A DNA stretch of 47,084 nucleotides from an archaeon BMS3Bbin15. GTDB lineage: Archaea; Hydrothermarchaeota; Hydrothermarchaeia; Hydrothermarchaeales; BMS3B. The translations under genes and the position numbers were made by a program. The notes beneath the pieces were generated by a model that made no database searches, was not told the DNA's origin, and saw only the letters and a program-made list of their open reading frames with translations. Where the stretch lies: the NCBI GenBank assembly GCA_002897955.1, contig BDTY01000019.1, forward strand, positions 1-47,084. Reading direction: 5' to 3'. The stretch's first letter is position 1. Every line of letters starts with the position of its first letter. Positions 29,295 to 44,665 of this stretch are shown here, piece by piece.

Positions 29295-29537
29295 TATTGT
29301 TATGGTTTGTTGGTATACACTTAAATCTTTCTGGTGGGATACAGGAAATTAAAAGGGGAAGAAGGTTAGCAGTTCCAGCCGCAGCTTTTTATTTTTATTA
29401 TGGAGGGGGTAGGGCATACTGTAGAGGTATGGAATATGAGATTATAAATTCTTGTGCATGGTATTATGCCAGTCCAATGAAGAAAAAGCAATTATAGTTC
29501 AGTGATATATTACATACATATTATTGAGGTGGTGTAT

Positions 29538-31439
29538 TTGAATGGAACCATTGAGCAGGGGATTCTGGGTAATTCAAAGTTGCTTGTGGGAATAGGGACT
29601 AAAGGTCACATCACACATTTGTTCTGGCCAAATCTAGACTTTGCAGAGCACATGGAAGCAAGCTTTGCAGGAATATATAGCGACAAAACCGGGTTTGGCT
29701 GGACAACAGACTCGCCATGGGATTACTCCCAGACATATATAAAAGATGCTCCTATCATCAGGACTGTAATGCACAACCCTGAGATAGGTATCGATGTCGA
29801 GGTAACGGATTTTGTACACTCTAAAGACGATATCCTTGTAAGACATTTCAGGATAATCAACAGGAGTAGAGATGATATAAACTTAAAATTGTTCTATTAT
29901 CTTGACCTGAAAATCATGGAAACTCTGACAGGTAATGCCGCCTTCTACGATTCTGACTCAGATTCAATAATTCAGTATTATAGACAGTGTTACTTCGCCT
30001 GCGGGGGCGACATAAAGATGAGTGGGTATCAGTGCGGCGCACACAACGATGGAAGTGATGCCTTCTCTGATGTTTATGACGGAAGGTTAGAGGGAAATCC
30101 ATTAATAATTTCTCACGGCAGCAAAGGGATAAATTCCTCTCAGCTCTGGGATTTGGGCAGATTTTCTCCAGGAGAAGAGAAGGAAGTCACTATCTTTATA
30201 GGTATGGGTTCCGACGAGAACCGTGCCCTTTCCTCCCTGTTAACGGCCAGACAGAATTGTTACAAAGGCTTATATGAAGATACAGAGAGGTACTGGAATG
30301 AGTGGCTCAGCAGGAGCAGGGAGGTAAAGAAATTTTCGGAAGTTTACAGACGCTCTTTAATCACCCTGAAACTACTCAGCAGCAGGGAGTGGGGCGGGGT
30401 AATTGCTGCCCCAACCACAGTGCCAAACTATCGGTTCTGCTGGCCCCGTGATGGAGCCTACATCATTACAGCTCTGGATAGGGCTGGTTACCACGAGGAA
30501 GCCGAGAAGTTCTATTTCTGGTGCAAAATTGCACAGGAGAAGGAACACCATGTGCACTGCGGCCTTAAAGGTGATGTTCTTGTGTGCAGCACTGCAGATG
30601 GAAAGGCTGGAGGCTGGAAACAACGGTATTTTATTTCACCGCCTATGGTGGGGCCAAGCTGGGGGCCCCAGATAGATGAAACAGGCGCAGTTCTTTCAGG
30701 AATAGTATACCATTACAGGCTCACAAAAGACAAAAAATTTCTGAAAGAGAACTGGAGCATGATTATGAAGGCTGCCGAATATATCTGCTATATGCAGGAG
30801 AAACAGGGTAGAGACGGAATTATGTGCAGGTGTTTTGGTCCATGGGAAGAGAAATGGGCAAGGCATCTTTATTCAAATGCTGCATGTTACAGCGGCCTGA
30901 AGGCTGCATCCATGATAGCAAGGGTTCTTGGAGAAAGGGACATGATAGCGGCACGATGGGATGAGGCAGCAAATTGTATAAAGAAAGGTATAGAACGTGA
31001 GTTCTGGGATGCTGATGCAGGATACTTTAGAAAATCTATTGACCCCATAGACAAAACTGTAGATACAAGCATACTTGGCATTGTCATTCCCTTCAGGGTT
31101 TTTTCTGCCAAAGACGAAAGAGTGAGGAAAACAGTTGCCAGAATTGAAGAGGCTTTCAACTATCCTGTGGGAGGAATTGGCAGATATCCGGGGGATGTTT
31201 ATTATGGAGGTAACCCCTGGATAATCACAACTATGTGGCTTGCGATTTACTATCGCTATACAGGTAATATAGCCAGGGCTGACGAACTTGCCAGGTGGTG
31301 CATAGAGCATGCAACAGAACTTGATATGTTGCCAGAGCAGGTAAATAGAGATACCGGTGAACCTCTGTCTGCAATACCCCTTGGCTGGAGTCATGCTATG
31401 CTGGTGCACTATATTCTGGAATGGGAAAAAAGAAGGTAG
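29538..31439 (+). CDS. GH15 glucoamylase (glucan 1,4-alpha-glucosidase), intracellular
   Basis: About 634 residues. An N-terminal beta-rich domain (about 1-260) is followed by an (alpha/alpha)6 barrel with FCWPRDGAYIITAL (about 301-314), the acid-side region WGPQIDETG (about 376-383) and the catalytic-base region LPEQVNRDTGEPLSAIPLGWSHA (Glu about 600; quoted in part). It releases glucose from maltodextrins or glycogen. No signal peptide is visible, so it acts inside the cell. The start is TTG at 29538, 6 nt after GAGGTG. The upstream ATG at 29502 would add 12 residues not typical of the family. It opens the Entner-Doudoroff module by supplying glucose. A TATA candidate ATTATAAATT lies near 29442-29451. 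Confidence 0.93.
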   Translation: MNGTIEQGILGNSKLLVGIGTKGHITHLFWPNLDFAEHMEASFAGIYSDKTGFGWTTDSPWDYSQTYIKDAPIIRTVMHNPEIGIDVEVTDFVHSKDDILVRHFRIINRSRDDINLKLFYYLDLKIMETLTGNAAFYDSDSDSIIQYYRQCYFACGGDIKMSGYQCGAHNDGSDAFSDVYDGRLEGNPLIISHGSKGINSSQLWDLGRFSPGEEKEVTIFIGMGSDENRALSSLLTARQNCYKGLYEDTERYWNEWLSRSREVKKFSEVYRRSLITLKLLSSREWGGVIAAPTTVPNYRFCWPRDGAYIITALDRAGYHEEAEKFYFWCKIAQEKEHHVHCGLKGDVLVCSTADGKAGGWKQRYFISPPMVGPSWGPQIDETGAVLSGIVYHYRLTKDKKFLKENWSMIMKAAEYICYMQEKQGRDGIMCRCFGPWEEKWARHLYSNAACYSGLKAASMIARVLGERDMIAARWDEAANCIKKGIEREFWDADAGYFRKSIDPIDKTVDTSILGIVIPFRVFSAKDERVRKTVARIEEAFNYPVGGIGRYPGDVYYGGNPWIITTMWLAIYYRYTGNIARADELARWCIEHATELDMLPEQVNRDTGEPLSAIPLGWSHAMLVHYILEWEKRR

Positions 31440-31537: not shown

Positions 31538-32617
31538 ATGAAGGCTATTGGAGTAATTCCTGGTAAAAAGGAAAGTGCCCGTATAGTTGATGTGGATAAA
31601 CCAGAAATGTCTTCTTCCGAAGTTCTGGTGAGGGTGTTGCGGGTTGGAATATGCGGTACAGACCATGAAATTGACCAGGGGCTCTATGGTGAGGCACCTG
31701 AAGGTGAGGATTTTCTTATACCGGGGCATGAGTCACTGGGTATAGTTGAAGAAATAGGCAGGGATGTGAAAGGCTTTGAAAAAGGTGACTTGGTTGTTTC
31801 TACAGTGAGAAGGCCATGCTCCGAGAACTGTCTGAACTGCAGGAGCGGCGAGAATGACATGTGCCTCACAGGAAATTTCAGAGAACGCGGGATAAAAAGT
31901 CTTCATGGTTTTATGGCAGAATATTACAAGGAAATTCCTGAATATCTGGTAAAAATCCCTGAGGAACTTTCTGATGTGGGAGTTCTGCTTGAACCTCTGA
32001 GCATTGTGGAAAAGGCAATTATGCAGACTTTTAAGATTCAGGAGAGAATGAAATGGAAGCCAAAAACAGCACTGGTACTCGGTGCAGGTCCCATAGGACT
32101 TCTTGCCACTTTTGTGCTTAGAGATATGGGTATAAATACATATACACTGGCGTTAGACCCCATAGACAGTCAGAAGGCAAAGCTTGTTACGGAAAGCGGT
32201 GCCAGCTACATTGATGCCACAAAGGAGCCAATACCCGGGTTAGTGGAAAAACTGGGAAATATTGATTTCATATTAGAAGCAACAGGCAGTTCCACAGTGT
32301 CCTTCCAGGCTATGGGTATTCTGGGTATCAACGGTGTTCTGGCGCTGACCGGAATTACAGGTGGGGATAAAAAGTTAGAGGTGGATGCAGACCACCTGAG
32401 TCTCTCCCTGGTGCTTGGAAACAAGCTCATTTTCGGCTCTGTAAATGCCAATATAACCTATTTCAGAAAAGGGGTTAAGCATATGCAGAATTTTGAAGCA
32501 AAGTGGCCAGGTCTTCTGAGTAAGCTTATAAGCAGGAAAGTTGCATTTGAGGATTTTAAGGAAGCTCCGCTAAGAAAAAAAGGTGATATAAAAGTGATAA
32601 TTGAAATAGGTAAATAA
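31538..32617 (+). CDS. Zn-dependent glucose/aldose dehydrogenase (archaeal GDH type)
   Basis: A 359-residue medium-chain dehydrogenase. The catalytic Zn site has Cys39 (GICGTD) and His64-Glu65 (PGHES). The structural Zn loop has Cys94, Cys98, Cys101 and Cys109. The Rossmann motif is GAGPIGLLA. The GSVNAN segment near the C-terminus is characteristic of archaeal glucose dehydrogenases of the Sulfolobus/Thermoplasma type. It oxidises glucose to glucono-lactone with NAD(P)+, the first step of the archaeal Entner-Doudoroff route. It sits about 100 nt after the glucoamylase gene and 7 nt before the oxidoreductase gene. Confidence 0.93.
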   Translation: MKAIGVIPGKKESARIVDVDKPEMSSSEVLVRVLRVGICGTDHEIDQGLYGEAPEGEDFLIPGHESLGIVEEIGRDVKGFEKGDLVVSTVRRPCSENCLNCRSGENDMCLTGNFRERGIKSLHGFMAEYYKEIPEYLVKIPEELSDVGVLLEPLSIVEKAIMQTFKIQERMKWKPKTALVLGAGPIGLLATFVLRDMGINTYTLALDPIDSQKAKLVTESGASYIDATKEPIPGLVEKLGNIDFILEATGSSTVSFQAMGILGINGVLALTGITGGDKKLEVDADHLSLSLVLGNKLIFGSVNANITYFRKGVKHMQNFEAKWPGLLSKLISRKVAFEDFKEAPLRKKGDIKVIIEIGK

Positions 32618-32624
32618 GGGAGGT

Positions 32625-34466
32625 ATGGAGGTGACAAAAGTCCTGCGTGTTGATTTAAGCACACACGCAATAGATATTGAAGAACCTGATGAGGATGTGG
32701 GAAAAAAGTTCATAGGGGGTAGCGGCCTTGCAGCAAAAATACTCTGGGAAGAGACTTCCCCATCTACCAATCCACTTGGGGAGGAGAACCGCCTTATATT
32801 TGCGGTTGGTCCTATGACAGGTACAATGGTACCTTCCTCAAGCAGGTATACTGTGGTTGCGAAATCTCCATTAACAGGGATTTTTGGAGAAGCAAACAGT
32901 GGAGGAAGCTTCGGGTTCCAGCTAAGCAGGACAGGATATATTGCAGTTGTAATTAAAGGTGTTGCAGAGTCACCTGTATATCTATGGATTGACAATGAGA
33001 ATGTGGAGATAAAGGATGCAATGCACCTCTGGGGAAAGGATACCTACGAGGCTCATGAACAGCTTCTGGGCGAAACAGATGGAAGAGCTACCGCTGCCTG
33101 TATCGGTCAGGCGGGTGAGAGAAAGGTTCTGCTTGCCGGCATAATAAATGATGGCAAAGATGGAAGGGCAGCGGCAAGGTGCGGTCTTGGTGCTGTTATG
33201 GGAAGCAAAAATCTCAAAGCAGTTGTTGTAAGGGGAACAAAGCCTGTAAAGGTGGCAGATGTTAAAGGACTTAAAAAAGCTCTGGAGGGTGTGCATAAGA
33301 GAGTGAAGAAGGCTGCTCTCGGACTGGCAACCTATGGTACTGCCCAGCAGGTGGAGTTTGATGAAAAAATAGGTGACCTGCCTGTGAAAAACTGGACAGA
33401 AAGAAGATTAAAAGAAGGGGAGTCTTATAAAATATCCGGTCAGAATATGGCAAAGATGATACTTACAGGTAACTACCATTGCACTGGCTGTCCTGTGGGT
33501 TGTGGGAGAACTGTTAAGATAAACGGGAAGGTGGAAGGTGCCGGGCCGGAGTATGAGAGTATAGGCCAGCTGGGTAGCAACTGTCTTATAACCAGCCTCG
33601 AAACAGTTGCAATAGCCAATGAGATGTGTAACCGATATGGCATTGATACCATATCAACTGGTCAGGTAATAGCATACGCAATGGAAGCATTTGAAGGAGG
33701 ATTCATAGACAAAGAAAAGGCAGGCATGGAGCTCACCTTTGGAAATAATGAGGCGTTTCTGGAGATGATAAGGCAGATTGGTGAAGCCAGAGGATTCGGA
33801 AGGCTCCTTGGCAGGGGTGTCTTGCGTGCCTCAGAAGAAATAGGGTTGCACCATGGTTCCATGCATGTTAAAGGTCTTGAGTTTCCGGCCCATGACCCCA
33901 GGGCAAAGAATAGTCTGGCTGTAGGCTATGCCACAGGTAACAGGGGAGCCGACCATCTGCAATCCCTGGCTCATGACCATCAGCAGCCCATGGGTGTGCC
34001 AATCCCGTACCTTGGGAATGATGTTGCTCCAGAGCAGTTCCAGAAAGAGGGGATAGGCATTTTCGTGGCTCAGATGCAGCATGTTATGGGCCTGTATGAC
34101 TCTCTTGTAATCTGCAAGTTTCTGTCTTTTGGCGATGTGGACTTCAGAGAGGTGCACACATGGTATAATCTTGTTACCGGGTTTACGACGACCTTCCGGG
34201 AGTTCCTTGAGACAGGGGAGAGAATATTCAATCTCAAGCGCATGTACAACGTAAGAGAGGGAATATCCAGGAAGGATGATAATCTGCCTCAAAGAATTGT
34301 TGAGGAGCTGAATGTTGAGGAGGGTATGCCTCTGACAGAAATACCAGACCTCAAGGCGCAGCTCGATGAATATTACAATTTCAGGGGCTGGGATAACAAC
34401 GGAGTGCCCACAGAAGAAAAACTTCGTGAACTCGGGCTTGATTTTGTACTGGAGGGTAAAATATGA
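32625..34466 (+). CDS. Tungsten-type aldehyde:ferredoxin oxidoreductase, likely glyceraldehyde-oxidising
   Basis: A 613-residue AOR-family enzyme that carries a bis-pterin W (or Mo) cofactor and a [4Fe-4S] cluster. Cluster cysteines are Cys286, Cys289 and Cys293 (YHCTGCPVGCGR) and Cys497 (LVICKF). N-terminal pterin-binding blocks (FIGGSGLAAKIL, FGEANSGGSFGF) and AHDPRAKNSLAVGYATGNRGADH are present (quoted in part). In this cluster the expected substrate is D-glyceraldehyde from KDG cleavage, giving glycerate and reduced ferredoxin. It could also be glyceraldehyde-3-phosphate or other aldehydes. The GTG at 32631, better spaced from GGGAGG, is an alternative start. Overlaps the aldolase gene by 4 nt. 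Confidence 0.92.
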   Translation: MEVTKVLRVDLSTHAIDIEEPDEDVGKKFIGGSGLAAKILWEETSPSTNPLGEENRLIFAVGPMTGTMVPSSSRYTVVAKSPLTGIFGEANSGGSFGFQLSRTGYIAVVIKGVAESPVYLWIDNENVEIKDAMHLWGKDTYEAHEQLLGETDGRATAACIGQAGERKVLLAGIINDGKDGRAAARCGLGAVMGSKNLKAVVVRGTKPVKVADVKGLKKALEGVHKRVKKAALGLATYGTAQQVEFDEKIGDLPVKNWTERRLKEGESYKISGQNMAKMILTGNYHCTGCPVGCGRTVKINGKVEGAGPEYESIGQLGSNCLITSLETVAIANEMCNRYGIDTISTGQVIAYAMEAFEGGFIDKEKAGMELTFGNNEAFLEMIRQIGEARGFGRLLGRGVLRASEEIGLHHGSMHVKGLEFPAHDPRAKNSLAVGYATGNRGADHLQSLAHDHQQPMGVPIPYLGNDVAPEQFQKEGIGIFVAQMQHVMGLYDSLVICKFLSFGDVDFREVHTWYNLVTGFTTTFREFLETGERIFNLKRMYNVREGISRKDDNLPQRIVEELNVEEGMPLTEIPDLKAQLDEYYNFRGWDNNGVPTEEKLRELGLDFVLEGKI

Positions 34467-35335
34467 AGCTAAAAGGAATATACTGTCCTATGATAACACC
34501 TTTTAAAAATGGTGGAATTGATTTAGAGGGGCTTGAGAAAAATATTGCCTTTCTTGAAAAGAAGGAAGTGACAGGTCTTGTACCACTTGGCTCTGCCGGG
34601 GAGTTCTCTGGTTTAAGCATTAAAGAAAGGAAAGAGGTGATTAAAAAAGTTCTGGATACCACATCATTGCCAGTAATAGCCGGGGCAACTTCAATGAGAA
34701 TGGAGGAAGCCCTTGAAATTATTGCCTATTCTGCCGACATGGGTGCAGAAGCTGCGCTGGTTGCACCTCCATACTACTTCAGAACAAGCCAAGAAGGGCT
34801 TTTCAGTTATTATTCAAATTTATCTTCGCATTCCACGCTGCCCATAATACTCTACAATATCCCGGTTTTTACAGGAAATCCATTTTTACCTCCTCTTGTA
34901 AAAAGGCTTTCCGTGCTGGATAATATAATAGGAATAAAAGATACGAGCGGCGACATGAAAAAATTTCAGGTAATTGTTAATCTGGTTCCAGAGGATTTTT
35001 CATGTCTTATAGGGGCAGACCATCTCCTTTTGCCAGCTCTGGTCACCGGAGCTTCAGGGGCAATTCTCGGTTCTTCAAATCTTGTGCCAGATATTCCTGT
35101 AGGGATTTACAGGACATGGGAGAGGGATATAGACAGGGCTGTAGGGCTGCAAAAACTTCTCATGAATATTGTGAAAATAATGGATACTGGCACCTTTCCG
35201 GCAGGACTTAAATATGCCATGAATATGCTGGACATTGCCGGAGGTGATGATGTTAGAGCACCTCTGCTTAATCTGACATCAGAAGAAAAAGATACAGTTG
35301 ACGGGCTTCTGAAGAAGATGGAGGTTAAGAAATGA
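34463..35335 (+). CDS. 2-keto-3-deoxygluconate aldolase-like (DapA family)
   Basis: A 290-residue class I aldolase TIM barrel with Schiff-base Lys159 (IIGIKDTSG), Tyr131 (LYNIPVFTG) and the GSAGE loop (43-47). The DapA arginine (NIPGR) is replaced (NIPVFTG), which indicates another aldehyde partner. In context this is 2-keto-3-deoxygluconate, split to pyruvate and glyceraldehyde. Its start overlaps the AOR stop (ATGA) and its stop overlaps the HprK-like start (ATGA), so three genes are translationally coupled. Other KDG/KDPG-like sugar-acid aldolase activities remain possible. Confidence 0.88.
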   Translation: MKLKGIYCPMITPFKNGGIDLEGLEKNIAFLEKKEVTGLVPLGSAGEFSGLSIKERKEVIKKVLDTTSLPVIAGATSMRMEEALEIIAYSADMGAEAALVAPPYYFRTSQEGLFSYYSNLSSHSTLPIILYNIPVFTGNPFLPPLVKRLSVLDNIIGIKDTSGDMKKFQVIVNLVPEDFSCLIGADHLLLPALVTGASGAILGSSNLVPDIPVGIYRTWERDIDRAVGLQKLLMNIVKIMDTGTFPAGLKYAMNMLDIAGGDDVRAPLLNLTSEEKDTVDGLLKKMEVKK

Positions 35336-36273
35336 GCTACCCTATAAATATTGTATCCCCGCAGGAGGCTGACCACAACTGGAGGTCTCTCCTCAAAGGG
35401 AAGAGAATAAGGTATGAGAGGAAGGCAGACATCAATGGCTGCTGTATAAAGCTGATGACAGATGAAGTAGAAACTGTAAACACGTTCGATGAGAACTTCT
35501 ATCACCTGAGTGAAAAAATAAGGTCTCACGGCAGGCTGCTTGTTTTTGATGATGGCGGGGAAAACTTTCGCGTAGAATACGAGCCTATTTCCAGGTCAGC
35601 CTTTCTGTGGAACTGCAATTACTATGGCTATGTTAAATCCATTGCCCTTGCCCTTGCAGGAGACATTCTGGAGGACCTCCACAGGTTCTATTCGGTTCAT
35701 GGTGCATGTCTTGACTACCGCGGCGAGGGTATTGCCCTTGTTGGGCCGAGCGGTGCAGGTAAGACAACCCTGAGCTATGGCATACTCAGGCGGAAGAAGT
35801 CCAGGCTGATAAGCGATGACTGGTTCTATGTGAGGTTCCAGGGAAGGGAAGCCACTATTATGAGTTCGGAGAAGGAAGTATATATCAGGGGGGGAATAGA
35901 GAAGGACTGGAAGGACTTCGAGCCGCTGATAGAGGATGCACGGTTCGACAAAAAGGGCAGGGCTGTTGTAAACCTCAAGAACCTTCTGGGAGGGGAAAAG
36001 ATAAGGTCAGTAACATCACTATCAACATTTGTACTTCTCAAGCGGGATTTCAAAGATGAAAAGCTGATAGAGGAAGTATCCAGAGAAGAAATGCTGAAGT
36101 TGATGGTAGAGAACAATTTTTATAATCCGCATCTGCTTGTAAGGGACAAACGAAAGCAGAGGTTGAGAAAGAGGTTTATTAAAAATCTCCTGGATGTTGC
36201 AAAGCCTGTTGTGGTAAACACAACAGCCACTCCGGAAGAAACTGTGGACCTTATTCTGGAGGCAGTATCCTGA
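35332..36273 (+). CDS. HprK-like P-loop kinase of unknown target
   Basis: A 313-residue protein. The N-terminal 110 residues are not recognised. From about 120 it matches the HPr kinase/phosphorylase catalytic fold: conserved His in YSVHGACLD (His123), Walker A VGPSGAGKTT (about 137-146) and the acidic pair in LISDDWFYV (Asp162-Asp163). HprK phosphorylates a serine of HPr in bacteria. Some archaeal relatives are small-molecule kinases. No HPr or PTS gene is visible here. The gene is coupled to the aldolase (4-nt overlap) and to glycerate kinase (TGATG), placing it firmly in the sugar-acid pathway. It could phosphorylate a pathway enzyme, sense a metabolite, or act on a sugar acid. Confidence 0.75.
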   Translation: MSYPINIVSPQEADHNWRSLLKGKRIRYERKADINGCCIKLMTDEVETVNTFDENFYHLSEKIRSHGRLLVFDDGGENFRVEYEPISRSAFLWNCNYYGYVKSIALALAGDILEDLHRFYSVHGACLDYRGEGIALVGPSGAGKTTLSYGILRRKKSRLISDDWFYVRFQGREATIMSSEKEVYIRGGIEKDWKDFEPLIEDARFDKKGRAVVNLKNLLGGEKIRSVTSLSTFVLLKRDFKDEKLIEEVSREEMLKLMVENNFYNPHLLVRDKRKQRLRKRFIKNLLDVAKPVVVNTTATPEETVDLILEAVS

Positions 36274-37613: not shown

Positions 37614-37625
37614 GAGGTGAAGAGG

Positions 37626-38261
37626 ATGGAGATTATAGACATATCTGTAAGTGTATATGATGGAATGAAGGTATTTCCGGGGGACCCAACTGTTGCGATT
37701 CTGCCTCACTCAAGAATAGCCAGAGGAGATGCTGCGAATGTATCTGAATTACACATAGGGACTCACACAGGAACTCATATGGACCCGCCCCTCCATTTTT
37801 TCAGAGAGGGAATGGATGTTTCACACATATCCCTTAAAAGGCTCATAGGTGAGTGTTATGTTTTGGACATGAAGTCCATTGAAGAGAAGATAACCAAGAA
37901 GGAGCTTTATCCAAAGCGGAGCTTGTTCAGAAATAAAATTCTGCTTCTAAAGACGGCGAATTCAAGACTGCTGAAGGATGAAAAGTTCCACACTGATTAT
38001 GTCTATCTTACCAGAGATGGTGCAGAGTTGCTTGTGGAGCAGGGAGTGAAGCTTGTGGGTGTAGATTATCTGTCAATTGAGAAATATGGAGGGAGTGGAG
38101 AGGTACATAGAACTCTCTTAGGCAGTGGTACACCTGTTGTTGAGACACTGAATATGTCAGGGGTTGAAGAAGGTGAATACTTTTTTACTTTTCTGCCTCT
38201 CAAAATAAAGGGTGGAGATGGTGGCCCTGGCAGGGCAGTTTTAATTAAAAAGGAGGAATAA
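37626..38261 (+). CDS. Cyclase-family metalloenzyme (kynurenine-formamidase fold), candidate lactonase
   Basis: About 211 residues. The metal-binding signature of the cyclase/KynB family is intact as HIGTHTGTHMDPPLHF, with a further conserved GVDYLSIEKYG. The family hydrolyses amide or ester bonds using Zn or Mn. The module otherwise lacks a gluconolactonase, so this enzyme may open glucono-1,5-lactone. That role is inferred from position only, and spontaneous lactone opening would also do. The ATG at 37626 is correctly spaced from AGGAGGTGA (37612-37620). A GTG at 37617 is the alternative. IlvD/Edd follows 2 nt downstream. Confidence 0.82.
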   Translation: MEIIDISVSVYDGMKVFPGDPTVAILPHSRIARGDAANVSELHIGTHTGTHMDPPLHFFREGMDVSHISLKRLIGECYVLDMKSIEEKITKKELYPKRSLFRNKILLLKTANSRLLKDEKFHTDYVYLTRDGAELLVEQGVKLVGVDYLSIEKYGGSGEVHRTLLGSGTPVVETLNMSGVEEGEYFFTFLPLKIKGGDGGPGRAVLIKKEE

Positions 38262-38263
38262 AG

Positions 38264-39970
38264 TTGTTGCACAGTCAAAAAATGCGTGAAATAGGACCGG
38301 AAGTAGACCCACTGAGGCTTGCATGTGGCTATTCCAGAGCTGACCTCGGCAAACCAAATATACTGGTTGAAAGTGTTTATGGGGAATCCCACCCGGGTAG
38401 TATGCATTTAAATGAGCTTGTAGAATATGTGAAGCGTGGGGCGTATGAGGGTGGTGGTGCTCCACTGAAGTACTCATGCACAGATATATGTGATGGTATA
38501 GCCCAGGGTACAAAAGGAATGGACTACTCCCTTGTGAGCAGGGAGGTAATAGCCAGTGCTGTTGAATTCCATGCAGAGGCAGGGCACTTTGACGGTATGG
38601 TTCTGGTTTCAGGCAGTGATAAGGCTGTACCTGCACATTTAATTGCAGCAGCAAGATTAAAAATGCCAGCAATTTTCGTTCCTGGTGGTGTGATGGACCA
38701 GTGGATAATAACTCTTGAGCAGGTGGGAACAATATACTCAAAACTAAAGCGCGGAGAAATGGAGGAGGATGAATACAATTTTCTCAGGGAGTATTCCTGC
38801 CCTACCAATGGTACCTGCGCCTTTTTAGGTACTGCTCTCACAATGCAGAGTCTGGCAGAAGTTCTGGGACTGGCTCTTCCAACTTCAGCAGTGTGTCCTG
38901 CAACAAGCTTTGAGATAAGAAGGCTGGCGCAGAATGCAGGCAGCAGGATTGTTGAGCTGATTGACGAAAAGCTAACCGCAGATAAAATACTGACAGAAGA
39001 GGCTTTTGAAAATGCCATAATAGTTCATGCTGCCATGGCTGGCTCAACAAATGCAATGCTTCACCTGCCTGCCATAATGAAGGAGCTTGGCTACAAATTT
39101 TCTCTGAAGAGAGTATCGGAGATAAATGATGAGGTGCCCTTTATAGTCAATGTGCGCCCCTCGGGAGAATATCCTGCCAATCGCCTGTGGTTTGCAGGAG
39201 GTGTCCAGAAAGTAATGCTTGAGTTGAAGGATTACCTGAATCTGGACTGTATGACTGTAACCGGTAGAACAGTGGGTGAAAATCTGGAAAATCTGGAAAA
39301 AACTGGTTTTTTCAAAAAAAGACCTTTGTTTCTGGAAAATTATGGATTGAAGGTCAATGATGTGATAAAGAGCACAGAAGCTCCCATAACAAAATCCGGT
39401 GCCATTGTAGTTCTCAGGGGTAATATAGGCACTGGCATTATCAAACGCTCTGCTGTAGATGAAAGTATGTTTAATTTCACCGGCCCTGCAAGGGGCTTCG
39501 ATTCCCAGAGTGATGCCCTTAAGGCAATATTCGGAGGAGAAATCAAAGGAGGAGAGTGTATAATTCTCCGCTATGAAGGGCCAAGGGCGAATGGAATGCC
39601 CGAGCAGTTCTATGTTACAGAGGCAATATCCTCGAATGATAAGTTCAATACCAGTGTTGCCCTCTTAACAGACGGAAGATTCTCTGGAGCAAGCCGCGGG
39701 CCATGCATAGGTCATATATCACCGGAGGCTATAGACGGCGGTGTGCTGGCTGTGATAGAGGATGACGACCTGATTCACATAGACCTGAATAAAAACAGGC
39801 TGGATGTTGTGGGAATAAAAGGAGAAAAACTCCCTGAAGAGGAAATATTAAAGATAATAAAGGAAAGGTTATCGGTATTTAAAGCTCCTCCAAGAAAATA
39901 TCAGAGTGGCCTTTTAGGTCTTTATACAAAATATGCAGCCTCTGCTGAAGAAGGAGGGTTTATGCAGTGA
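38264..39970 (+). CDS. IlvD/Edd-family sugar-acid dehydratase (candidate gluconate dehydratase) with altered cluster cysteines
   Basis: A 568-residue dehydratase-family protein. In this module it should convert gluconate to 2-keto-3-deoxygluconate. Family blocks DGIAQGTKGMDYSLVSREVI, IVHAAMAGSTNAMLHLPAI, RGNIGTGIIK and LLTDGRFSGASRGPCIGHISPEA (quoted in part) are present. Two canonical Fe-S ligand positions differ: the PCN motif reads PGS (Gly45) and the CDK motif reads GSDK (Ser118). Cysteines occur instead at 72 and 76 (YSCTDICDG), with the normal ones near 179 and 184 (SCPTNGTC). The Cys in CDG is shared with Edd and YjhG-type enzymes. The start is TTG 38264, 7 nt after AGGAGG. True IlvD activity is less likely. 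Confidence 0.88.
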   Translation: MLHSQKMREIGPEVDPLRLACGYSRADLGKPNILVESVYGESHPGSMHLNELVEYVKRGAYEGGGAPLKYSCTDICDGIAQGTKGMDYSLVSREVIASAVEFHAEAGHFDGMVLVSGSDKAVPAHLIAAARLKMPAIFVPGGVMDQWIITLEQVGTIYSKLKRGEMEEDEYNFLREYSCPTNGTCAFLGTALTMQSLAEVLGLALPTSAVCPATSFEIRRLAQNAGSRIVELIDEKLTADKILTEEAFENAIIVHAAMAGSTNAMLHLPAIMKELGYKFSLKRVSEINDEVPFIVNVRPSGEYPANRLWFAGGVQKVMLELKDYLNLDCMTVTGRTVGENLENLEKTGFFKKRPLFLENYGLKVNDVIKSTEAPITKSGAIVVLRGNIGTGIIKRSAVDESMFNFTGPARGFDSQSDALKAIFGGEIKGGECIILRYEGPRANGMPEQFYVTEAISSNDKFNTSVALLTDGRFSGASRGPCIGHISPEAIDGGVLAVIEDDDLIHIDLNKNRLDVVGIKGEKLPEEEILKIIKERLSVFKAPPRKYQSGLLGLYTKYAASAEEGGFMQ

Positions 39971-39991
39971 AAAAAAATCATGAGGGTAAAA

Positions 39992-42097
39992 ATGAACTTT
40001 AAAACAAGTTTTTTCAATCCGAAATCCATTGCGGTAATAGGTGCATCCGCACACCCTGGAAAGGTTGGATATGAAATCCTAAAGAATATAATCGACAGTG
40101 GATATAAGGGAAAAGTGATGCCTGTAAATCCCAGAGAACATGAAATCACTGGTTTGAAGTGTTTTAAGGATATAAAAGAGGCAGGAGGCGCAGAACTTGT
40201 CATAATTTCAGTTCCTGCATCTGTAGTACCAGAGGTTGTGGAAGAATGCGGTGAGGCAGGTGTTTTAAATATCGTCATAATCTCTGCAGGGTTTAAAGAG
40301 ATAGGAAAGGAAGGAGCAGTGCTTGAGAGAAGAGTTGTTGAAATCGCAAGGTCAAAGAACATGAGAATACTTGGTCCCAACTGCCTGGGTGTGATGGATA
40401 TGTATACACCACTCAATGCAACCTTTGCAGGGGAGATGCCAGAAAAGGGCAGGATTGCTGTTGTGTCTCAGAGCGGTGCTCTACTCACCGGAATTCTGGA
40501 CTGGAGTATGAAAAACGGGATAGGATTCAGCAGGTTAATAAGCCTTGGAAATAAGTCTGACCTGAGTGAAACCGATTTTATTGAGGCTCTGGCAGATGAT
40601 GAGAATACAAGAGTGATACTGTGTTATATAGAGAGTATAGATGAAGGTCAGCATTTTGTGGATGTTGCAAAGAAGGTCTCACGGAAAAAACCTCTTATAA
40701 TTCTCAAGTCGGGTACAGGTGAAAGTGGAGCCCGGGCTGCAAGTTCTCATACCGGTGCTCTGGCTGGCAGTGACATAGCCTATACCACTGCCTTCAGGGA
40801 GTCAGGCGTTATAAGAGCCAGCACTCTTGAAGAGCTATTTGACCTGGCAAGAATTTTTGTTTCCGAGCCTGTGCCCGGAGGTTCTAGCGTTGGAGTGGTG
40901 ACAAATGCTGGCGGTCCAGGCATTCTATCTGTTGATGCCGTAGATAAAAGTGGGCTCCAGGTAGCGAAGTTCGGAAAGGAGACTATAGACAGGCTCAGGC
41001 AAAAACTTCCGAGTGAATCCAATGTATATAATCCTGTGGATGTTGTGGGTGATGCAAAATCAGACAGATATGCCTATGCACTTGATACAGTGCTTTCCGA
41101 CCCCAATGTCGACTCTGCACTGGTGATTCTAACACCCCAGGCCATGACAGAGCCCTACGAAACGGCAAAGGTTGTTGTGGATATGAAGAAAAAGTTTCCA
41201 GATAAACCCATGGTTACGTCATATATCGGTGGACTGGTTCTTTCAGGAAGTGTTGAGTATCTGGAAAAAGAGGAGGTTCCAAACTATGCCTTTCCTGAGT
41301 CAGGTGTAAGGGCGCTGGCAGGGCTTGTGAAGTATTCTGAATCTATTAAGCTTAAAAGAGATGAATCTGCCGGGGAATTCAGCGGACTGGATAAAGAAAA
41401 AGTAAAAAGTGTTCTTGAGTCTATCAAAAAAGACGGTAGAAATGTGCTTTTTGGCAGTGAATCATCTGTTATAATGAAAGCTTATGGAATACCAGTAGCA
41501 AAATCTATACTCACAGATTCACCTGAAGCTGCTGTGATGGCAGCGGACAGCCTGGGATACCCTGTTGTAATGAAGGTTGCTTCACCGAGTATACAGCACA
41601 AGAGTGATGTGGGCGGTGTCAGAGTTAATATAAAGGATTCCAGCGAAGTTAAGTCTGTTTACAGTGAAATCCTTGACTGTGTGTACAGATTTCTGCCAGG
41701 TGAAAGCATATATGGTATAGAGGTGCAGGAGATGAAGCCTCAGGGACGCGAGCTCATTATAGGCATGAACCGCGATATACAGTTTGGTCCGCTTGTTATG
41801 TTTGGTCTTGGAGGCATATATGTCAACCTTTTAAAAGATGTGTCTTTCAGACTTGCAAATTACATTACCTCAAAGTCTGCCTTTGATATGATAGGTGAGA
41901 CCAGGGCATACATGCTTCTGAAAGGTTTCAGGGGCGAAAGCCCATCTGACATAGAATCCGTGGTGGATGTGATATTGAGGACGTCTAAACTCACAGTGGA
42001 TTTTCCGGAGATTGTGGAATTAGATATAAATCCACTTTTTGCCTATGAGCATGGCGTTGCCGCTGTGGATGTTAAAATGACAATTTCATGGGAGTGA
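39992..42097 (+). CDS. ADP-forming acetate/acyl-CoA synthetase, fused alpha-beta
   Basis: About 701 residues. ACD converts acyl-CoA, ADP and Pi to acid, CoA and ATP, the main substrate-level ATP step of many anaerobic archaea. The alpha part (about 1-450) has a CoA-binding Rossmann start SIAVIGASAHPGKVGYEIL, the succinyl-CoA-ligase-like LGPNCLGVMD and the phospho-His in SSHTGALAGSD (about His253). The beta part (about 470-700) is an ATP-grasp domain with YPVVMKVASPSIQHKSDVGGV (quoted in part) and GLGGIYVNLLKDVSF. I start at ATG 39992 after GAGGGT. ATG 39980 is possible. It closes the module by converting acetyl-CoA to acetate. Confidence 0.94.
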   Translation: MNFKTSFFNPKSIAVIGASAHPGKVGYEILKNIIDSGYKGKVMPVNPREHEITGLKCFKDIKEAGGAELVIISVPASVVPEVVEECGEAGVLNIVIISAGFKEIGKEGAVLERRVVEIARSKNMRILGPNCLGVMDMYTPLNATFAGEMPEKGRIAVVSQSGALLTGILDWSMKNGIGFSRLISLGNKSDLSETDFIEALADDENTRVILCYIESIDEGQHFVDVAKKVSRKKPLIILKSGTGESGARAASSHTGALAGSDIAYTTAFRESGVIRASTLEELFDLARIFVSEPVPGGSSVGVVTNAGGPGILSVDAVDKSGLQVAKFGKETIDRLRQKLPSESNVYNPVDVVGDAKSDRYAYALDTVLSDPNVDSALVILTPQAMTEPYETAKVVVDMKKKFPDKPMVTSYIGGLVLSGSVEYLEKEEVPNYAFPESGVRALAGLVKYSESIKLKRDESAGEFSGLDKEKVKSVLESIKKDGRNVLFGSESSVIMKAYGIPVAKSILTDSPEAAVMAADSLGYPVVMKVASPSIQHKSDVGGVRVNIKDSSEVKSVYSEILDCVYRFLPGESIYGIEVQEMKPQGRELIIGMNRDIQFGPLVMFGLGGIYVNLLKDVSFRLANYITSKSAFDMIGETRAYMLLKGFRGESPSDIESVVDVILRTSKLTVDFPEIVELDINPLFAYEHGVAAVDVKMTISWE

Positions 42098-42102
42098 TAT
42101 GA

Positions 42103-43170
42103 ATGAAAAGTATTTATATAATCGGGACTGTAGAAAGCGGGAAAACCGCTCTGTGCCTGGGGCTTGCTCTAAAGTTCAGGGAGGAAGGCTACAGAGTTAG
42201 CTATTTCAAGCCCGTGGGTATTGCAACAGGTATTGCTGGTATGAGGGATGATGATACAGAGCTTATGAGGACTGTACTTGATATAAAAGTACCATTCGAG
42301 AAAATGACTCTGTTTACCATGGGCTACAATTATCTTACCAGATATGGGCCAGAGAATTCTGAAAAATATATGGCTGATATAAAAAGTGCCTATAATGAAA
42401 TCTCCAGGGATTGCGATATTGTGATAATAGAAGGTACCACAAGCCCGCAGGCCATGCTTGCCCTTGGCCTTGACGCATCTACTATTTCCAGAAGCCTTGG
42501 AGCAAAAATGCTTATGGTTTCCAGGGTTAATGACGATTTCGGGATGGATGAGCTTATATTGAATCTTCAGTATATGAAAAAGGCAGGGGTTGATATTATG
42601 GGTACTCTATTCAACTTTGTGCCGACTCCCCTTCTTGAAAGGACCAGGAATGTGTATGTGCCCATTCTCGAGAGGAAGGGATTTAATATCAGGGGAATTG
42701 TACCGGAGAGAAGGGAACTCACTGCTCCCACGGTTAAGGAAATATATGACGTTCTTGGAGGCGAGATTCTTGAAGGAGAATCCAACCTTGACCTTCTGGT
42801 TGAGAATTTTCTGGTGGGTGCCATGACAACAGACAGTGCCCTGAGATATTTCAGACGCTCAAAAAACAAGGCAGTAATAACAGGAGGAGACAGAGCAGAT
42901 ATTATACATTCTGCCCTGGAAACCAGTACCTCAGTGCTGATACTCACAGGAAACCTGTATCCTGATGTCAGGGTGTTATCCAAAGCATCTGAGAAGGGTG
43001 TGCCTGTAATCCTTGTACCCTATGATACATATACAACAATAGAAAAATTGCATGGCGTATCATGTAAAATTAAAGCCACTGATGAAGAGGGAAAGAGGCA
43101 GTCAAAGGAGCTTGTGGAGAACTATATTGACTGGAAAGGTATTTTAAAGGAGCTTGAAGGCACTATATAA
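42103..43170 (+). CDS. BioD-like P-loop protein with DRTGG domain (phosphotransacetylase N-terminal type)
   Basis: A 355-residue protein. A dethiobiotin-synthetase-like P-loop domain (about 1-205; IIGTVESGKTALCLGLA, then VIIEGTTSP) is followed by a DRTGG-type domain (about 210-330) with AVITGGDRADIIHSALET. This is the N-terminal half of long Pta enzymes without the phosphotransacetylase catalytic domain. Stand-alone copies are often next to ACD genes in archaea and are thought to be regulatory sensors, perhaps of adenine nucleotides. It begins 5 nt after the ACD stop, so a role in controlling acetate and ATP formation is reasonable inference. Confidence 0.88.
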   Translation: MKSIYIIGTVESGKTALCLGLALKFREEGYRVSYFKPVGIATGIAGMRDDDTELMRTVLDIKVPFEKMTLFTMGYNYLTRYGPENSEKYMADIKSAYNEISRDCDIVIIEGTTSPQAMLALGLDASTISRSLGAKMLMVSRVNDDFGMDELILNLQYMKKAGVDIMGTLFNFVPTPLLERTRNVYVPILERKGFNIRGIVPERRELTAPTVKEIYDVLGGEILEGESNLDLLVENFLVGAMTTDSALRYFRRSKNKAVITGGDRADIIHSALETSTSVLILTGNLYPDVRVLSKASEKGVPVILVPYDTYTTIEKLHGVSCKIKATDEEGKRQSKELVENYIDWKGILKELEGTI

Positions 43171-43181
43171 AATTCCAGTGA

Positions 43182-44665
43182 TATTTAACTTTTTGCCTGT
43201 GCTCTCGTTCTGACCTTGCTGAATAAACACAGTGAATCCTCCACTGCATGCTTTTCTCCTGAAAATTCACATACATTCAATTTCATTCTTCCCACAAGCC
43301 TTACTTCTGCCCTCGCAAAACACAAAAATTCGATAGCCATGACTAAGTTTTACATCTGTTTTTCCGTAGATTGGTTCTCAGCTGATTCTTCAGCCTGATG
43401 CCAGAAAAGGCCTGAACCTTGAGAGCACGTCAATCAGCGTCCTTCCGCATCCTTTCAACATCCCTGCCCTTTTTATCTGTGAGAGCTTCATCTGGTTCTC
43501 GATGCCCACATCACTCCTGAACTGTTTCTTCCTGTGCGTCTTCAGGCTTGTGGAGTAGTAGTTTTCTATGGGGTTGTTGGTTGCCGGTGCTCCCTGCACG
43601 AAGTAGAAGGCTGTATACCTGTCCCAGTTCTTCTCGATTTTTCTAAGACGTTTCTTGACTTTCGTGTCTAAGGAGTCTATCTTCGCCATCAAGCCCTTGA
43701 AAATATCCACTGCCTCCATATACGCCTTCTGCACAAGATTTTTCCTCTCCCGTCTGCGTTTGAGCTTTAGTTCGTAGACAAAAGCCCTGAAAACACTTCT
43801 GGCTTTAATTAACCATGCCCTGTATTGCTTTGCATCGCCCTGCTTTACCTCCCGCTCCTTTTTCGCCATCGCCTCAAGCATATCAAGCTCTTGCTCACGG
43901 TTGTAGAAGATGTTCAGTAGTTGGTACATGGTCTGGAGCTGTTCAATGGTTGGTTTTCTTGGGAAGTCTTGCACTATGCGTTTATTCAGGTGCAGCAAGC
44001 AGAGCTGATGTATCAGGTTCTCGCCGAAGAACTCATTAAAAACCTCTGGATAGCTGGGGTAAAGGTCGGTCACAACAAAAGTGGGTTTGCTGGGGTTGAG
44101 ATGCCTTTCGAGGAAGGCCTTGATGGTTTCAGTGTCTTTTTTTCTGTGAAGCTCTTCGGCTATAACTTTCCTAGAAGTGTCCAGTAGAGTTAGCCGATAC
44201 CTATGGTTTCTACCCTTTTTCGGAAATTGCTCATCGTAGTGGACGATTTGGATTTCTTTCACCGGTTGGGTGACTGTACTACCCATCGTGCTGTTGAAAG
44301 TCTGGTAGATGGTGTCCTTACCCCTGGGGAAGATGAGCTCAAGTATCCAGGAGATACCCTGATAGGAGACGTGATGAACCCTTAATCGCTGATAAATCAG
44401 GCGCAAAACCTCGAAGAAGTCCGCTTTAAGCTCCTCCCAGAAGCTGCGGTCTTCTTCCAGTGACTTACCACACTGTGGGCAAAGGTACCTGCCTATCTTA
44501 ACGCTGCCCAACCCCTTCTTGGTGTAGGTGTTGTAGCCATTGTAAGTCATCCTGGGCAGAAAGAGGGCACTGACCTTCGGAAGATACCATCGGGGGTATA
44601 TTCAAAGTCGTTTGAATACCTGCTAAAGGTGGAAAGCAGCTCGTCTTGATACAAAAAGTTAAATA
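43182..44665 (-). mobile_element. Insertion sequence with 14-bp terminal inverted repeats
   Basis: TATTTAACTTTTTG at 43182-43195 is repeated in inverse orientation at 44652-44665, bracketing one transposase gene and about 200 nt of other sequence. A clear target duplication is not seen. The element lies between the DRTGG gene and the GH57 gene and so may have split a longer catabolic unit. A 51-codon minus frame (43185-43340) inside the left end ends within the repeat and is probably not a gene. IS family not assigned with certainty. Confidence 0.75.
43390..44550 (-). CDS. DDE-type transposase
   Basis: A 386-residue transposase. A short zinc-ribbon remnant at the N-terminus (YLCPQCGKSLEE) is followed by a helical DNA-binding region. 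The RNase H-like core has Asp in IVHYDEQFPKKG, Asp in VVTDLYPSYPEVF and Glu in NNPIENYYSTSLKTHRK. A His-Leu segment LLHLNKRIVQDF and a Lys/Arg-rich insert lie between the second and third acidic residues. GC-richer codon use (CGC, CTC, GGC) than the neighbours supports acquisition. The frame is full length and may be active. Confidence 0.88.
   Translation of the reverse strand: MTYNGYNTYTKKGLGSVKIGRYLCPQCGKSLEEDRSFWEELKADFFEVLRLIYQRLRVHHVSYQGISWILELIFPRGKDTIYQTFNSTMGSTVTQPVKEIQIVHYDEQFPKKGRNHRYRLTLLDTSRKVIAEELHRKKDTETIKAFLERHLNPSKPTFVVTDLYPSYPEVFNEFFGENLIHQLCLLHLNKRIVQDFPRKPTIEQLQTMYQLLNIFYNREQELDMLEAMAKKEREVKQGDAKQYRAWLIKARSVFRAFVYELKLKRRRERKNLVQKAYMEAVDIFKGLMAKIDSLDTKVKKRLRKIEKNWDRYTAFYFVQGAPATNNPIENYYSTSLKTHRKKQFRSDVGIENQMKLSQIKRAGMLKGCGRTLIDVLSRFRPFLASG

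Follow-up and report, generated by a model that had tools for sequence, protein, structure and literature searches.

An uncharacterised archaeal branch of the PEPCK/HprK kinase superfamily, encoded in a plausible Entner-Doudoroff operon of a hydrothermarchaeon

Introduction

In PEP carboxykinase (PEPCK), Lys213, His232, and Asp269 serve as metal ligands, and Arg65, Tyr207, and Arg333 bind oxaloacetate or PEP. Together with HPr kinase (HprK), this enzyme belongs to the PEPCK/HprK superfamily, a kinase family in the scheme of Cheek et al. that unites COG1493, PF01293, and PF00821 (PMC1079889). HprK itself is recognized by a signature with the consensus [ILM]E[IV]RG[ILMV]G[IV][ILM] (PMC2937029), and HprK-like kinases that act on precursors of lasso peptides and other RiPPs instead of HPr have been described (PMC13381572). 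A survey from 2008 described archaea as devoid of PTS proteins, with the exception of Haloarcula marismortui (PMC2405797).

Here, we analysed a stretch of 47,084 nucleotides from the archaeon BMS3Bbin15 (contig BDTY01000019.1; hereafter, the window), in which one gene encodes a kinase-like protein. The initial annotation of this protein as an HprK-superfamily kinase without an HPr partner holds, and its two readings, as a kinase of proteins or of small molecules, both stand, but the proposed tie to sugar acids does not.

Results

The genes surrounding the kinase-like open reading frame form a plausible and apparently complete operon for the non-phosphorylative Entner-Doudoroff (npED) pathway. 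The assignments are based on profile matches, supplemented for the aldolase substrate by operon context and motifs, and for the kinase-like protein by the open reading frame, its translation, and its motifs:

29502..31439, forward strand: GH15 glucoamylase/oligosaccharide amylase-like protein
31538..32617, forward strand: glucose dehydrogenase (ADH_N + Glu_dehyd_C)
32625..34466, forward strand: aldehyde ferredoxin oxidoreductase, putative glyceraldehyde oxidation step
34463..35335, forward strand: DapA-family aldolase, probably a 2-keto-3-deoxygluconate aldolase
35332..36273, forward strand: HprK/PEPCK-superfamily kinase-like protein, 313 aa
36273..37613, forward strand: glycerate 2-kinase (DUF4147 + MOFRL)
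37617..38261, forward strand: PF04199 cyclase-family protein
38264..39970, forward strand: IlvD/EDD-family dehydratase, below the DHAD cut-off
39980..42097, forward strand: ADP-forming acyl/acetyl-CoA ligase
42103..43170, forward strand: PTA N-terminal-like AAA_26 + DRTGG protein

The aldolase scores above the cut-off of the NCBIfam dapA model and carries the motifs GSAGE and YNIPVFTG in place of the GTTGE and YNxPxRT of DHDPS. The cyclase-family protein, which scores below the arylformamidase cut-off, is possibly a sugar-lactone hydrolase. Since no second intact IlvD/EDD protein turned up in the genome and the dehydratase stays below the DHAD cut-off, it may serve gluconate dehydration and branched-chain amino acid synthesis alike. 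With the glycerate kinase and candidates for every other step encoded, no kinase step of the pathway is missing. Immediately downstream of the operon lies a gene that is transposase-like in appearance (43390-44550, reverse strand).

The start codon of the kinase-like gene (ATG, 35332-35334) and the stop codon of the aldolase gene (TGA, 35333-35335) overlap by 4 bases (ATGA), while its own stop codon (TGA, 36271-36273) shares 1 base with the ATG of the glycerate kinase gene (36273); GGAGG precedes both starts, as read directly from the DNA. The initial annotation was thus right about the overlap with the glycerate kinase start, but it had placed the other overlap at the start of the aldolase gene rather than at its end. 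A congeneric genome encodes a 97% identical protein in an identical arrangement. This, together with the conservation of the family across archaea, places the open reading frame beyond chance, and the gene genuinely belongs to a widespread archaeal kinase family.

The HprK-type core described previously was found as claimed: His123, a P-loop (GPSGAGKTT, residues 138-146), and Asp162-Asp163 are all present, and His123, Lys144 of the P-loop, and both Asp residues are invariant in 39 homologues. Further motif residues comprise Tyr97-Tyr98-Gly99, Lys102, Glu180/Tyr184, Arg210, Asn265-Pro266, and Asn296-Thr297, and the positions invariant in 39/39 homologues include Y97, Y98, G99, K102, S103, H123, K144, D162, D163, E180, Y184, R210, and N296. 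A structure prediction from three sequences was unusable (pLDDT 30, pTM 0.19).

Profile comparisons with HprK gave a local match. The protein reaches 35.7 bits against the cut-off of 33.3 for PF07475 (Hpr_kinase_C), over residues 119-179 only, corresponding to positions 6-64 of the 171 in the profile, and this domain was detected in 38 of the 39 family members. The HPr kinase equivalog model TIGR00679 was not reached (33.1 bits, cut-off 240), and neither the HprK signature nor the C-terminal PGRN motif occurs in any of the 39 members. An E-x3-Y pattern is present in all of them; this short pattern is also found in the HprK used for comparison. The latter, the B. subtilis protein, carries the published signature.

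Relative to PEPCK, the protein shares the superfamily P-loop core, the upstream His, and the downstream Asp-Asp, scores 18 bits against the cut-off of 369 for NF006821, and is unmatched by PF01293 at an E-value of 0.01. The N-terminal domain, which had been described as unrecognized, is so only in part: the PEPCK HMM matches members of the shorter type (class I) over approximately residues 77 to 200 and thereby begins upstream of the HprK model starts (114-121). In an alignment with E. coli PEPCK, Tyr97, Lys102, Ser103, His123, and Lys144 correspond to Tyr207, Lys212, Lys213, His232, and Lys254; Asp162-Asp163 corresponds to Asp268-Asp269, Glu180/Tyr184 to Glu282/Tyr286, and Asn296-Thr297 to Asn440-Thr441, and Arg210 falls on or near Arg333.

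Two longer family members, L011 and L077, constitute class II. They align with class I nearly end to end (hhalign E = 5.9e-54), and residues 21-358 of L077 match NF006821, a PEPCK profile (E = 1.8e-13), so that this protein is PEPCK-like over almost all of its length, including most of the N-terminal part. Furthermore, one archaeal family encodes fusion proteins of approximately 900 aa in which a class II-like domain is followed by a bona fide PEPCK (408.6 bits, cut-off 369):

L073:1248-3947: class II-like domain + full PEPCK
L074:64-2745: class II-like domain + full PEPCK
L075:6314-9016: class II-like domain + full PEPCK
L076:6528-9239: class II-like domain + full PEPCK

The catalytic motifs of the N-terminal domain are degenerate in these fusions, and their genes lie near ribosomal protein S8e-like genes, with an isopropylmalate/citramalate-type synthase gene downstream. 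In addition, three archaeal proteins of roughly 590-640 aa (L092, L093, and L094) match PF01293 over roughly profile positions 70-300 and are possibly further PEPCK-like families.

The P-loop core of class I scores at least as high against HprK as against PEPCK profiles, and with residues 119-176 masked, hhalign gave no significant match to either. What ties class I to PEPCK is therefore the set of aligned motifs together with the bridge through class II. At the sequence level, the placement of the archaeal family in the PEPCK/HprK superfamily is well supported, and a closer affinity to PEPCK than to HprK is moderately supported.

Approximately 40 full-length homologues were found among 394 archaeal genomes (about one tenth), and within the phylum the gene occurs in 4 of the 23 genomes searched. 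The closest homologues in named records belong to MAGs labelled Euryarchaeota SZUA-158 and Candidatus Hydrothermarchaeota. Viral contigs yielded no relatives, and plasmid matches were short, covering about 24% of the query. One copy (L078, G280:C1:520407-521291) is broken by a single in-frame TGA with its neighbours conserved, representing a pseudogene or a sequencing error.

For the neighbourhood analysis, genes were called as longest open reading frames and clustered by BLASTP; among the neighbours, NCBIfam supplied the names citramalate synthase and PEPCK, Pfam supplied DHQ synthase II and RuBisCO, and several others were assigned by eye from the sequence. Among the 23 genomes of the phylum, the npED setting is kept in the one congeneric genome only. 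A genome from another family of the same order (G019) encodes a 79% identical orthologue (L006) on a 3.4-kb contig that carries no other npED genes, and a MOFRL glycerate kinase was not found in this 88%-complete genome; its second, longer copy (L011) adjoins a citramalate/isopropylmalate-type synthase gene on the opposite strand. Elsewhere, the family gene adjoins an AMP phosphorylase-like gene (G015), lies beside RuBisCO III with PEP carboxylase and TpiA, or is found with homoserine dehydrogenase and citramalate synthase, with threonyl-tRNA synthetase, or with chorismate synthase. In two methanogen-like families, the gene order is pantoate kinase, ADH synthase, DHQ synthase II, family gene, RNA 2',3'-cyclic phosphodiesterase, and CCA enzyme, and a distant homologue (L061) sits after an aldehyde ferredoxin oxidoreductase gene. 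In many lineages, a single metabolic gene, a different one each time, lies close upstream of the family gene or overlaps it. In a tree, the homologues group mostly by host family, and the setting shifts between clades.

Co-occurrence was assessed in 80 genomes (34 with and 46 without the family), a sample that is not phylogenetically balanced and includes some incomplete genomes. MOFRL glycerate kinase was found in 6/34 carriers and 10/46 non-carriers (p = 0.78, no association), and ten glycerate kinase loci in other genomes had no other npED operon gene or family gene nearby, except for one 51-residue ligase match. RuBisCO likewise showed no association in this sample (p = 0.49). DHQ synthase II was found in 29/34 carriers and 22/46 non-carriers (p = 0.0008), which is not taken as functional evidence because phylogeny confounds it. 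HPr (PF00381) had no match in the 98.6%-complete genome encoding the window, and was absent from 34/34 carriers as compared to 2/46 positive non-carriers; a control search was positive in 7/14 known genomes. This rarity is in line with the 2008 PTS survey (PMC2405797), and the negative search of the genome encoding the window agrees with the earlier remark that no HPr gene is visible.

The initial annotation had also proposed to check whether homologues accompany gluconate dehydratase and glycerate kinase, and for glycerate kinase no association was seen. Homologues spread independently of sugar-acid genes, the very distribution that it had set against a role in the Entner-Doudoroff or sugar-acid pathway; the orthologue L006 without npED neighbours, the glycerate kinase counts, and the unrelated neighbours elsewhere point the same way. 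The family is not tied to sugar acids.

Discussion

We consider the best explanation, with a probability of roughly 0.45, to be that the protein uses ATP to phosphorylate a small carboxylic metabolite close to the PEP/pyruvate node. The P-loop would bind ATP with Mg or Mn, His123 and Asp162/163 would hold the metal and activate the acceptor, and, judging from the PEPCK alignment, Tyr97, Lys102, and Arg210 would hold the carboxylic metabolite that becomes phosphorylated. Phosphotransfer from nucleotide to acceptor is suggested because the catalytic-type residues are invariant, and we favour a small carboxylic acceptor rather than a protein since PEPCK substrate-contact residues are kept and HprK-specific segments are absent. 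A true PEPCK is not expected, as the Arg65 segment is missing and Lys213 is replaced by an invariant Ser. The PEP/pyruvate node is the probable surroundings of the acceptor because the operon partners seen in different lineages supply this node or draw from it; counted here are DHQ synthase II, RuBisCO III with PEP carboxylase and TpiA, citramalate synthase, and the npED pathway. However, a change of partner in every lineage suits a regulator no less than an enzyme with a single fixed reaction.

A close rival is a Ser/Thr protein kinase, perhaps with phosphorylase activity as well, whose target differs by lineage and is a metabolic enzyme, in most cases the product of the adjacent gene; this would follow the logic of HprK without HPr. 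We regard this as somewhat less probable than the metabolite kinase. The Hpr_kinase_C domain in 38/39 members and the coupling to a different metabolic gene in many lineages suit such a protein kinase, and there is precedent both for HprK-like kinases acting on non-HPr peptides (PMC13381572) and for the regulation of enzymes that form PEP, as by the PPDK regulatory protein (PMC9138534). Against it, all 39 members lack the HprK signature as well as the PGRN region at the C-terminus, several conserved motifs fit PEPCK rather than HprK, and no common partner protein was found among the lineages.

A pathway-specific sugar-acid kinase, e.g., for KDG or glycerate, or a dedicated Entner-Doudoroff regulator would account for the tight coupling within the operon in two congeneric genomes, and for the position of the distant homologue L061. 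This is nevertheless improbable considering the 79% identical orthologue without npED neighbours, the lack of co-occurrence with glycerate kinase, the unrelated neighbours in other lineages, and an operon that already has a glycerate kinase and candidates for all other steps. Equally improbable is a kinase-derived nucleotide or metabolite sensor that modulates neighbouring enzymes through binding without phosphotransfer, since the catalytic-type residues are all invariant in the 39 unfused proteins; in its favour, the degenerate catalytic motifs in the N-terminal half of the PEPCK fusions show that non-catalytic descendants exist.

A broader and more speculative proposal, to which we give rather little credence, is that in PTS-less archaea a PEPCK-related mini-kinase is coupled, through its operon, to a carbon-entry enzyme that varies with the lineage, from DHQ synthase II, RuBisCO III, and citramalate synthase to the Entner-Doudoroff pathway, and sets the flux around the PEP/pyruvate node as an HPr-free counterpart of HprK control. 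Irrespective of its substrate, this kinase family is strongly conserved, apparently catalytically intact, and present in approximately one tenth of the sampled archaeal genomes, and our searches of the open-access literature found no paper on it. The present label "HPr kinase" would be misleading, given that the archaeal carriers tested are without HPr. Furthermore, cultivable methanogens appear to be among the carriers, to judge from lineages resembling cultivated ones, which makes the substrate question directly testable.

The archaeal family represents a separate branch, so far uncharacterised, within a known superfamily. With HprK (PF07475, TIGR00679), it shares the P-loop, the conserved His and Asp-Asp, and the overall length, as well as local profile matches at about residues 114-180 and 205-256; unlike HprK, it conserves YYGxxKS (39/39) and a C-terminal (V/I/L)NT (38/39). 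The HprK-related kinases A and B (TIGR04352, TIGR04355) and the HprK-like kinases of RiPP and lasso-peptide clusters resemble it in using an HprK-like core without HPr, but the matches to these two models are weak (17-23 bits, cut-off 200), and no RiPP genes were noticed among the neighbours examined. HPr-independent HprK-like kinases are known from RiPP clusters (PMC13381572), which qualifies the new role for the HprK family that had been proposed. By its motifs, the protein fits better into a branch of its own between HprK and PEPCK than among the HprK proteins. With ATP-type PEPCK (PF01293, NF006821), the family shares equivalents of Tyr207, Gly209, Lys212, His232, the P-loop, Asp268-Asp269, Glu282, Tyr286, probably Arg333, and Asn440-Thr441. 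However, it comprises only about 310 aa as compared to 500-540 aa, and class I members fall far short of the PEPCK cut-offs; of the metal ligands, His and Asp are kept, whereas the Lys213 position is Ser in 39/39 members, and of the substrate-binding residues, the Tyr207 and probably the Arg333 equivalents are present, whereas the Arg65 segment is absent. At the level of sequence, the family thus links HprK and PEPCK, two groups that have so far been joined mainly by their fold.
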